From: Singulisphaera sp. GP187
GTDB lineage: Bacteria > Planctomycetota > Phycisphaerae > Phycisphaerales > SM1A02
Direction: 5' to 3'
DNA: 49,545 bases
Assembly: GCA_945871445.1 (NCBI GenBank)
Contig: CAMBWI010000011.1
Span: forward strand, 1-49,545
The position numbers and the translations under genes are program-made. The notes below the pieces were generated by a model that did no database searches, was not told where the DNA came from, and was given only the letters and a program-made list of their open reading frames with translations. Every line of letters begins with the position of its first letter. The stretch's first letter is position 1. Shown piece after piece: positions 9,856 to 22,752 of this stretch.

Positions 9856-10773
9856 ATGAACAACGCAACGATCAACCATGATAATCCAGCAAATCCAGCG
9901 GCAGCCAAGCCATATGTCGACCTTGCAGTCCACCACGCAGTAGAAGGTCGCCGCGAGGAAGCGGTGCATTCTTATCGCAAGGCGCTCGAGTCGGATCGTT
10001 CGGTCGCAACACTCTTTGCTTTGGCAAAGTTGCTTGACCGTATTGGAGATGATCAAGAAGCAATCGATTTGTACGAGGAGATTTGCTATCTCCCAATGCC
10101 GCCAGTGAATGCGTTGATCAATCTCGCCGTGCTCTATGAGGACATGGGAGAACTCCAACGCGCAGAGCGTTGCTTGCGCAGTGTGCTGTCTTTGTATCCA
10201 AACCACGCTCACGCACGAATGTATTTGAAGGATGTTTGCGCTGTGAAGACGATGACATATGACGCGAATGCTGAACAGCAAGCAGCGCGGCGCAATGCAA
10301 TTCTCGACACGCCGATCACCGACTTCGAACTTTCAGCCCGCGCGCGCAACTGCTTGAAGAAGGTGGAAATTCGCACGCTTGGAGATCTCTTGCGTGTCAC
10401 CGAAGCAGAGTTGATGGCATTTAAGAACTTCGGCGAAACCAGCATCAACGAGATCAAGTCGATGCTCAATTCTCGTGGTCTGCGCTTGGGTCAAGGCCTT
10501 GAAGGTGGATTCGAAGAGTCATACCGCCGTGAATTTTTGGATCAGTTGCGATTGCAGGTCGCTCCAGAATTGTTGGATCAACCAATTAGCTCGCTCGAAT
10601 TGACGATCCGCGCAAAGAAGGCTGTTCAATTGCTCGAAGTGCGAACGCTTGGCGAACTTGCATGTCGCACCGAAGCGGAATTGATGGGCATGAAGAACTT
10701 CGGTTTGACAAGCCTCGACGAAATCAAGGCTCAACTTGCAACACACGGACTTTCGCTTCGCGTGCTGGAATGA
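9856..10773 (+). CDS. TPR protein with two RNA polymerase alpha C-terminal domains
   Basis: The 305-residue protein has TPR-like helices at about 20-125, then two tandem copies of the RNA polymerase alpha C-terminal fold at about 149-212 and 239-302. The first copy (ITDFELSARARNCLKKVEIR, then FKNFGETSINEIKSML) keeps the counterparts of E. coli RpoA Arg265, Asn268, Cys269, Gly296, Ser299 and Glu302 as Arg162, Asn165, Cys166, Gly193, Ser196 and Glu199. The second keeps Arg252, Gly283, Ser286 and Glu289 but has lysine and alanine for Asn268 and Cys269. No alpha N-terminal domain is present, so it is not RpoA. In RpoA these residues contact UP-element DNA and activators. A role in transcription is inferred. 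The gene stands alone with its own terminator. Confidence 0.9.
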   Translation: MNNATINHDNPANPAAAKPYVDLAVHHAVEGRREEAVHSYRKALESDRSVATLFALAKLLDRIGDDQEAIDLYEEICYLPMPPVNALINLAVLYEDMGELQRAERCLRSVLSLYPNHAHARMYLKDVCAVKTMTYDANAEQQAARRNAILDTPITDFELSARARNCLKKVEIRTLGDLLRVTEAELMAFKNFGETSINEIKSMLNSRGLRLGQGLEGGFEESYRREFLDQLRLQVAPELLDQPISSLELTIRAKKAVQLLEVRTLGELACRTEAELMGMKNFGLTSLDEIKAQLATHGLSLRVLE

Positions 10774-20490: not shown

Positions 20491-20688
20491 AGAAGAACAT
20501 CGCTTCGTCTTCCGAGGTTGATTTCGTACAAGTCAGCGTATCAGCGGATGGATCATTAGCGATGTGCCCTGCGGGTCTCAATCCTTGAATTGCCAAACAC
20601 CCACAATTTGCACGAAAAACAGGCAAAGTGTCGATCATAAGAAGCCGTCAATTCGCGCATAGTTCTGGTTTTTTGTTTGGTCAATTTT

Positions 20689-22137
20689 ATGAAGCTCTTT
20701 ACGAACAATTATCGCGCACTTCGTTCAAGCACACTACTTGCAACTGCAACGACATTGCTTTTTGTCGCCTCATGCGCAAACGAACCAACTGCAGTTCCAT
20801 CAAGTCGACCTTCTCAGATTCCAGCATCAACTACGCAACTCGCTCCAGAAAGTCCTGTGACTGAAAATCCAATTCCAAATTCCACGACGACCATCGTTAC
20901 AGATCTGCCCATGAAGGCGAAACCGATTCCACCAAAACCGCTTCCCTCACCGCCGAAAACAGAACCCGAAGTTGCAATTCGAATTGAAACACTTCCGCTC
21001 AATCAAGTGGTCATCATCAATCACGCTGCGGGTCGATTGCAAATATCTTCCGAGCACTCATCGGCGGATGATCAAGAGTGGACAGCAAGCACGCCAATCG
21101 AGATTCGTATTCAAGGCGAAGGTTGGCGTGTGACTTCGGCAAAAAAAACTGGAACACCTTCTCAGACGCACGAATATTCCGCTGGCGAATTAAATATTCA
21201 GTCTCTCAATGGCGACAAGCGTCCGATTCAGTGGAATAAAAAGGAATGGCCAGGAAAACTGCGTGTTGTGCGGACTTTAAGCAATATTGACTTGGTGATG
21301 GATGTCAAGATGGACTCTTACCTTCCCGGAGTTATCGCGAAAGAACTCTATCCCTCTTGGTGCGAAGATGCCTATCGCGCACAAGCGATCGCCGCCCGCA
21401 GTTACGCCGTTGTCGAAGAATCGCGCTGGGAAGGTCGCCGTCACTATGACATGGTCGCGGGTCAGCAAAGTCAGGCATGGATCGGCGCGACAAAAAATAC
21501 AAAAGCTCTTGACGCAGTTCGTGATACGCGTGGTCAAGTGCTTGTGCACGATGGTGTGGTGGTTCCTGCGTATTACTCAAGTGCATGCGGTGGTCGACCT
21601 GCCAATGCACTCGGCGTGCTGACCGACAATCCATTTCACAACATCGTTTGTGTCTCAACTGGCAATAATTCTAAAAAGCGCACTTCATGTTGCGAAACAA
21701 CATCAGTTGCGACATGGAAAGCATTCATTGCACTGACGAAGATTCAGTCTCGTCTGCAAGCGTGGGGAAGTGCAAATAGCCGCGCTGATTTCGCAGCGCT
21801 TCAACTTCCAACTGCCATCGAAGTCGCAGATAAAAATTCAGCAGGCCGTCCAACGCAATTTCGCATTCAAACTCGCAAGGGTGGCTCGATCATGATCGAT
21901 TCAGAAGATTTCCGTCGAGCAATCAATGCAGCTGGCGATCCCAAGTCCAGCATGCGCTCCAGCGATTGTTCAATTCGTATTGCCGGTGCAAATGCAGAGT
22001 TTTCGGGGCGCGGATTTGGTCATGGCGTTGGACTTTGCCAACATGGCGCGCAGGAAATGGGTCGCAAGGGCGAAAGTTTTAAACAGATTCTTGCTCGTTA
22101 CTATCCTCAAACAATGATCGTGCAGGCTTGGAAATAA
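20689..22137 (+). CDS. SpoIID/LytB domain lipoprotein
   Basis: The 482-residue protein starts with a lipoprotein signal ending LLFVASC, Cys29 being the likely lipidation site, followed by a Pro- and Thr-rich linker. The SpoIID domain shows YLPGVIAKELYPSWCEDAYR with the conserved glutamate, AQAIAARSYAV, YYSSACGG and GRGFGHGVGLCQHGAQEMG. SpoIID cleaves peptidoglycan glycan strands stripped of stem peptides, and LytB-type relatives enhance amidases. ATG 20689 is used. The riboflavin synthase gene begins 3 bp after its stop. The preceding 198 bp hold no gene I can support. Confidence 0.9.
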   Translation: MKLFTNNYRALRSSTLLATATTLLFVASCANEPTAVPSSRPSQIPASTTQLAPESPVTENPIPNSTTTIVTDLPMKAKPIPPKPLPSPPKTEPEVAIRIETLPLNQVVIINHAAGRLQISSEHSSADDQEWTASTPIEIRIQGEGWRVTSAKKTGTPSQTHEYSAGELNIQSLNGDKRPIQWNKKEWPGKLRVVRTLSNIDLVMDVKMDSYLPGVIAKELYPSWCEDAYRAQAIAARSYAVVEESRWEGRRHYDMVAGQQSQAWIGATKNTKALDAVRDTRGQVLVHDGVVVPAYYSSACGGRPANALGVLTDNPFHNIVCVSTGNNSKKRTSCCETTSVATWKAFIALTKIQSRLQAWGSANSRADFAALQLPTAIEVADKNSAGRPTQFRIQTRKGGSIMIDSEDFRRAINAAGDPKSSMRSSDCSIRIAGANAEFSGRGFGHGVGLCQHGAQEMGRKGESFKQILARYYPQTMIVQAWK

Positions 22138-22140
22138 TCT

Positions 22141-22752
22141 GTGTTTACGGGACTCGTTCAATCCGTCGGAACAATCGCTCATCACACCACAACAGCAAGT
22201 GGTATGCATATGGTCATTCAATGCGGCGAGATGGCGTCGCTTTTGCGCCGAGGTGATTCCGTCAGCGTTCACGGCGTTTGCTTGACTGTAGTTGGAATTC
22301 GCTCTGGACAATTCGATGTCGATGTCATTCCTCAAACGCTTTCGATGACGACGCTTGGCGGATTGTCGGACGGCGATTCAGTCAATCTTGAACCCGCACT
22401 GCGTATGGGTGATCCGATGGGGGGTCACATCGTGCAGGGGCATGTCGATTCGATCGGTGAAGTTTCTCTTGTAGATCGCACGGATGGGCAGTGGCACATT
22501 CGAGTGAAGTCACAGCGTAATGATTGTGATTCGCTGGCACTCATCACTGCGCAAGGATCGATCACATTGAATGGTGTTTCGCTGACGATTGCACATTGCA
22601 CTGCAGAATGGTTCGAAGTCGCGCTGATTCCAGAGACTCTCGCTCGTACAACTCTTGGTCAAGCAGTGATCGGCGATCGCATGAATATCGAAATCGATTC
22701 TGTTGCGCGAATGATTGATCAAGCTGTTCGTCGACACCTTGACGCACGATAG
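22141..22752 (+). CDS. ribE: riboflavin synthase alpha chain
   Basis: Riboflavin synthase dismutates two lumazine molecules into riboflavin. The 203-residue protein has two lumazine-binding repeats, the first opening with FTGLVQSVGTI and the second with GHIVQGHVDSIGEV, and contains the usual SVHGVCLTV and TLNGVSLTI stretches. The start is GTG 22141, directly at the conserved N-terminus. It follows the SpoIID gene with a 3-bp gap, so it is probably read from the same transcript. No other rib gene is nearby. Confidence 0.96.
   Translation: MFTGLVQSVGTIAHHTTTASGMHMVIQCGEMASLLRRGDSVSVHGVCLTVVGIRSGQFDVDVIPQTLSMTTLGGLSDGDSVNLEPALRMGDPMGGHIVQGHVDSIGEVSLVDRTDGQWHIRVKSQRNDCDSLALITAQGSITLNGVSLTIAHCTAEWFEVALIPETLARTTLGQAVIGDRMNIEIDSVARMIDQAVRRHLDAR

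Follow-up and report, generated by a model that had tools for sequence, protein, structure and literature searches.

A TPR protein with two polymerase-type alpha C-terminal domains is encoded almost throughout the Planctomycetota

The window (the whole stretch of DNA that was analysed, 49,545 nucleotides) encodes a protein in which TPR helices are joined to two RNA polymerase alpha C-terminal domains (aCTDs), here called copy 1 and copy 2 (Table 1). Judged from sequence matches and predicted structures, both domains are genuine aCTDs. The gene occurs almost throughout the sampled Planctomycetota, and constraint is strong on most residues of copy 1 that correspond to DNA or sigma contacts. The protein is quite possibly, and here tentatively, read as a core, phylum-wide DNA-binding adaptor that would act in trans at promoters.

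Table 1. The TPR-aCTD gene, the parts of its protein and one gene of the surrounding region, with positions in the window
Feature	Positions	Strand	Details
TPR-(aCTD)2 protein gene	9856..10773	+	305 aa; open reading frame without internal stops; AGAGG 10 nt before ATG
Three TPR helix pairs and capping helix	9895..10248	+	residues 14-131; AF2 helices, Pfam TPR
Hinge	10249..10299	+	residues 132-148; conservation over 63 families
aCTD copy 1	10300..10494	+	residues 149-213; DNA- and sigma-contact residues kept
Linker joining both aCTDs	10495..10575	+	residues 214-240; poorly conserved
aCTD copy 2	10576..10764	+	residues 241-303; Lys at 268, Ala at 269
SpoIID/LytB protein gene	20677..22137	+	context only; ~10 kb after the TPR-aCTD gene

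In the Pfam search of the window protein, RNA_pol_A_CTD (PF03118) matches over two stretches with 129.7 bits (cut-off 23.8). TPR_2 matches with 55.2 bits (cut-off 27), as do several further TPR models, and the alpha N-terminal domain family is absent from the 24 Pfam families listed for the protein. The sequence-only reading had described this same arrangement, with two tandem aCTDs, joined TPR helices and a missing alpha N-terminal domain, and it stands; the AF2 models also contain TPR helix pairs and aCTD-like units. HHH_5 reaches 18.9 bits, which is below its cut-off of 27. The NCBIfam RpoA models align by the C-terminal part only, the best reaching 125 bits where 302 would be needed. Among PDB sequences, all 43 matches of copy 1 at E<=1e-6 and all 42 matches of copy 2 at E<=0.001 are RNA polymerase alpha chains.

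The AF2 model of the whole protein has a mean pLDDT of 74.4 from an alignment of 12 sequences, 11 of them close, and consists of three TPR pairs, a cap, a weak hinge and two helical units. These units are aCTD-like in the AF2 model of residues 140-305 (mean pLDDT 80.7). The placement of the domains relative to each other is unreliable in the two models (pTM 0.45 and 0.53). The fold matches listed for the whole protein are TPR-type structures, with an RNA polymerase chain at rank 49 as the sole exception, and the aCTD part was therefore fold-searched apart. Foldseek with the model of residues 140-305 gives 225 matches at E<=10, of which 49 are at E<=0.001; titles were judged for 50 of the 225. 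By title, each of the best 50 of the 225 matches is either an aCTD of RNA polymerase or a transcription complex that includes the polymerase, and no DNA-repair title is among them. The isolated aCTDs among these 50 have TM-scores by target length of 0.76-0.93, and four entries are complexes with DNA (3n4m, 9zum, 1lb2 and 3n97). The predicted structure thus agrees with the likeness to the RpoA C-terminal domain that was first read from the sequence. A generic HhH or DNA-repair fold is ruled out by the sequence matches and the best 50 fold matches together, both of which lead to RNA polymerase alpha or its aCTD.

The putative start methionine is common to the window protein and its relatives at loci L034-L043 in an alignment at 78-91% identity. 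No signal-peptide-like N-terminus was seen by eye in the protein. In the AF2 model, the helices of the TPR part span residues 14-29, 33-46, 50-63, 66-77, 84-96, 100-113 and 118-131. The window's form is short; the open frames run to at least 427 aa in 53 of the 63 family representatives, which leaves room for more TPRs. Across the 63 families, mean modal frequency is 0.77 in copy 1 versus 0.23 in the linker. The hinge carries the consensus S..M.yDE ahead of copy 1, and this consensus is kept across the 63 families. The window protein keeps M133, Y135 and D136 of it and deviates at V130 and A137. Residues 132-146 have low confidence in the AF2 model, and the stretch (residues 130-148, window 10243-10299) is thus conserved in consensus despite its predicted poor order. 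The consensus could serve as a binding motif.

The window's genome (2.26 Mb, 96 contigs, 82% complete) contains three aCTDs, two in the TPR-aCTD protein and one in a complete RpoA. The rpoA gene sits on a different contig (C15), where it adjoins ribosomal-protein genes (by eye). A displaced or split rpoA is ruled out by the presence of this complete gene in the same genome.

Across the phylum, a protein search finds a match in 391 of 392 Planctomycetota genomes, although the weak matches may be to RpoA only. At E<1e-30, a match is present in 368 of the 392 genomes and in 213 of the 216 of good quality (manual count). The good-quality exceptions are G031, G143 and G301, and G143 nonetheless has three aCTDs. 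Of the 392 genomes, 303 have three aCTDs, 39 have fewer (0 to 2) and 50 have more (4 to 6), again by manual count. In all eight inspected genomes with extra aCTDs, the tandem pair is accompanied by further aCTD-bearing open frames. At loci L245, L246 and L247 (genomes G121, G357 and G385), there are extra short open frames of 97-137 aa with one aCTD as well as open frames of ~1,420 aa with one aCTD. The longer frames may, by guess, be PglW-like.

With a profile built from RpoA, exactly two aCTDs are recognised in 84 of 84 loci from 63 families; these loci were chosen from the search matches to spread over families, so that the gene is present in them by choice, and for L035, L038 and L044 the window's family is the authors' own assignment. 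At L107 of genome G088, which lies outside this set, a single aCTD is recognised. In an alignment of the window protein and one protein from each of the 63 families, PF03118 and TPR_2 are both matched at E<=0.001 by 64 of 64 proteins. The architecture as a chance or recent oddity is ruled out by the phylum survey, the PF03118 score of the window protein and these 64 paired matches.

None of the 46 matching plasmid records and none of the six matching phage records covers 80% of the protein, and no relative of the window protein was found in viral contigs. A phage or plasmid gene is ruled out by this lack of a full-length relative in plasmids, phages and viral contigs. A search of viral contigs with the 64-row alignment finds a single small aCTD ORF at each of two loci. 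These ORFs encode small proteins with one aCTD (192 aa at L187:4875-5453 and 132 aa at L188:4935-5333), and the L188 ORF lies between an amidotransferase-like and a thymidylate-synthase-like ORF (names by eye). Such small proteins could act on host transcription.

Arg265, Asn268, Cys269, Gly296, Ser299 and Glu302 of E. coli RpoA, which are the UP-element DNA contacts, correspond in a gapless alignment to R162, N165, C166, G193, S196 and E199 of copy 1. In copy 2, Arg265, Gly296, Ser299 and Glu302 are kept as R252, G283, S286 and E289, and K255 and A256 replace Asn268 and Cys269. The sequence-only reading had named the same six counterparts in copy 1 and the same four kept and two changed residues in copy 2, and the alignment bears it out for both. 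The counterpart of Lys298 in copy 1 is Thr, as it is in 41 of 43 planctomycete RpoA sequences. Asp259 and Glu261 of E. coli RpoA contact sigma region 4; both are kept in copy 1 (D156 and E158), and the pair is half kept in copy 2 (S246 and E248).

Residue counts across the phylum were made after de-duplication, which reduces the TPR-aCTD proteins from 96 to 82 and the RpoA sequences from 46 to 43 (RpoA locus L121 left out). The counts cover 81 of the 82 proteins, with the single-aCTD protein of L107 left out, and the 81 domains of each copy are non-independent, many being from the window's own order. Arg265 is kept in 81/81 copy-1 and 80/81 copy-2 domains, Glu302 in 81/81 of both, and Gly296 in 81/81 and 76/81. 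Asn268 and Cys269 are each present in 73/81 copy-1 domains versus 41/43 RpoA domains. Copy 2 has mostly lost these two residues and has Lys or Arg at 268 in 72/81 domains. Position 267 is Arg or Lys in 81/81 copy-1 domains (Arg in 76) and in 75/81 copy-2 domains (Arg in 69), and RpoA differs here. Compared with random six-column sets, conservation is higher at the six contact columns in copy 1 (P 0.0013), in copy 2 (P 0.006) and in RpoA (P 0.00025).

On the sigma side, Asp259 is present in 75/81 and Glu261 in 72/81 copy-1 domains. The presumed partner residues of the aCTD in RpoD-type sigma are Lys593 and Arg603. When the best RpoD-type match is taken from each of 23 genomes, counterparts of both are present in 18, one of these being the window's genome. 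The match of one further genome has Arg in place of Lys593, and the other four fall outside the search pattern, which itself requires Arg603.

In 28 matched genomes (of 30), mean pairwise identity is 73% for copy 1, 54% for RpoA's own aCTD and 54% for copy 2. The E. coli aCTD shares 52% identity with copy 1 and 47% with the planctomycete RpoA aCTD, and is thus nearer to the former. Mean net charge in the same 28 genomes is -0.3 for copy 1, 0.0 for copy 2 and -3.9 for RpoA's aCTD, and the aCTDs of the TPR-aCTD protein are thus not basic in absolute terms. Between the window and seven near relatives (of 12 near-relative loci), copy 1 has dN of 0-0.056 and dS of 0.47-1.54.

An unrooted tree was built from 200 distinct aCTDs; in it, the 77 copy-1 domains fall into a single unmixed group (support 0.986). 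In the same tree, 43 planctomycete RpoA domains cluster with that of E. coli (support 0.981). Copy 2 does not form a clean group, and its best group holds 52 of 79 domains. Because the copy-1 domains form one pure group, the simplest reading of the sequences, with which the tree is consistent, is that the TPR-aCTD protein originated before the radiation of the phylum.

Two observations make action in trans at promoters the preferred reading: copy 1 has largely retained the surfaces for DNA and for sigma, and in most of the genomes compared the partner residues are present in the primary sigma factor. As in RpoA's aCTD, the Arg265 counterpart of copy 1 would enter the minor groove of AT-rich DNA beside promoters, and copy 1 could also make contact with the primary sigma factor at its region 4. 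Copy 2, with its extra basic residues, would add DNA affinity, and the TPRs would hold a partner. The protein would in this way add or withhold aCTD contacts in trans at many promoters. The sequence-only reading had proposed a free competitor for UP elements or activators with partners recruited by the TPRs, and it is supported as to the domains, the kept residues and the scaffold; competition and recruitment would be possible modes of the adaptor. A bolder form of this adaptor, which we consider unlikely, is a constitutive partner of the holoenzyme. In that form, the detached and duplicated aCTD unit would supply extra UP-element and sigma contacts at many promoters, joined to a partner on the TPRs, and the phylum's promoter recognition would be unlike that of model bacteria.

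The gene neighbourhood brings in a different role. With neighbours named by NCBIfam and Pfam on representatives, 38 of 84 loci, from 34 of 63 families, have ruvA on the same strand and at most 1.5 kb downstream of the TPR-aCTD gene, and a repair role is therefore a rival. Outside the window's class, ruvA is found in this position in 34 of 55 families; it is the commonest neighbour there and is not a transcription gene. The gap between match edges is 7-163 bp in 34 of the 38 loci, and ruvA is the very next gene by ORF order in 32. Three loci have a further ruvA match slightly farther off, one has it upstream and one has it on the opposite strand. In loci L174, L155 and L184, the order is TPR-aCTD gene, ruvA, ruvB, queH, spoIID, tgt, yajC and secD, and L162 has the same order without queH. 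The protein as a partner of RuvAB would be a DNA-binding factor for Holliday junctions, forks or repair intermediates, with the aCTDs as mere minor-groove grips. The close spacing and the shared order with ruvA and ruvB favour such a partnership. However, the cluster is functionally mixed, and the adjacency is therefore weak functional evidence. In the window's class (17 loci), the gene is retained although ruvA is adjacent in 0/17; spoIID lies at most 1.5 kb after the TPR-aCTD gene in 10/17, and tgt is adjacent in 2/17. RuvC is present in 28 of 30 genomes checked and lies away from the TPR-aCTD gene in all 28. The partnership also leaves the kept sigma-contact residues unexplained, and we regard it as unlikely. 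Replacement of ruvC by the TPR-aCTD gene ahead of ruvA is ruled out by the presence of RuvC in those 28 genomes.

The neighbourhood of queH, spoIID, tgt, yajC and secD resembles a common bacterial one, and in much of the phylum the TPR-aCTD gene occupies an old housekeeping site. The bacteria that carry SpoIID/LytB here (L174, L184, L155 and L162) are not known to sporulate. In the window, a MATE transporter gene precedes the TPR-aCTD gene, and molybdenum-cofactor-like genes come next on the opposite strand (by eye). Farther on (20677-22752), the SpoIID/LytB gene precedes a riboflavin-synthase-like gene, in which two stretches match a lumazine-binding domain.

The two minor-groove modules, with their added basic residues at 267 and, in copy 2, at 268, would also suit a nucleoid-type architectural protein in which the tandem aCTDs bridge AT-rich DNA without a specific polymerase contact. 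The TPR part of the window protein is acidic (net charge -5) and the Asp259/Glu261 face is kept in copy 1, both of which argue against this role and make it distinctly improbable. A decoy or holder for activators and sigma factors whose usual contact is RpoA's aCTD, with DNA binding incidental, would account for the kept 259 and 261 residues and for the counterparts of Glu286 (77/81) and Glu288 (72/81), presumably the activator-contact region of RpoA's aCTD, in copy 1, but Arg265, Gly296 and Glu302 are invariant there and thus exceed 259 and 261 in conservation, and this role is very unlikely.

The aCTD is a central regulatory surface of bacterial transcription and is regarded as part of the polymerase. 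A polymerase-free aCTD pair almost throughout a phylum, with one member more conserved than the aCTD of RpoA itself, would change models of promoter strength and activation there. The TPR-aCTD gene makes transcription open to testing in a phylum with poorly understood regulation, and it is a clear experimental candidate in the few genetically tractable species. Essentiality data exist for a planctomycete, Planctopirus limnophila (PMC10632474).

The TPR-aCTD protein combines a known domain with a phylum-wide architecture for which no description was found in the literature (open PMC papers), and three known systems are closest to it. It resembles the RpoA C-terminal domain (PF03118; the E. coli aCTD) in predicted fold and in the residues of copy 1 that correspond to UP-element and sigma region 4 contacts. 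Unlike RpoA, it has a tandem pair of aCTDs on a TPR scaffold without an alpha N-terminal domain, and it is encoded by a separate gene beside an intact rpoA and outside the ribosomal-protein operon. An aCTD-like domain outside RpoA is also known from the BREX kinase PglW (PMC12839542), and the NCBIfam PglW model matches the aCTD region of the window protein with 37.5 bits. This is far under the cut-off of 990 bits and, unlike PglW, the TPR-aCTD protein has no kinase family in Pfam. The stand-alone aCTD proteins (NCBIfam NF005841 and the L187 and L188 ORFs) likewise have an aCTD outside the polymerase. NF005841 scores 38.3 on the window protein against a cut-off of 115, and the stand-alone proteins differ from the TPR-aCTD protein in being short, with a single aCTD and no TPR (by eye).
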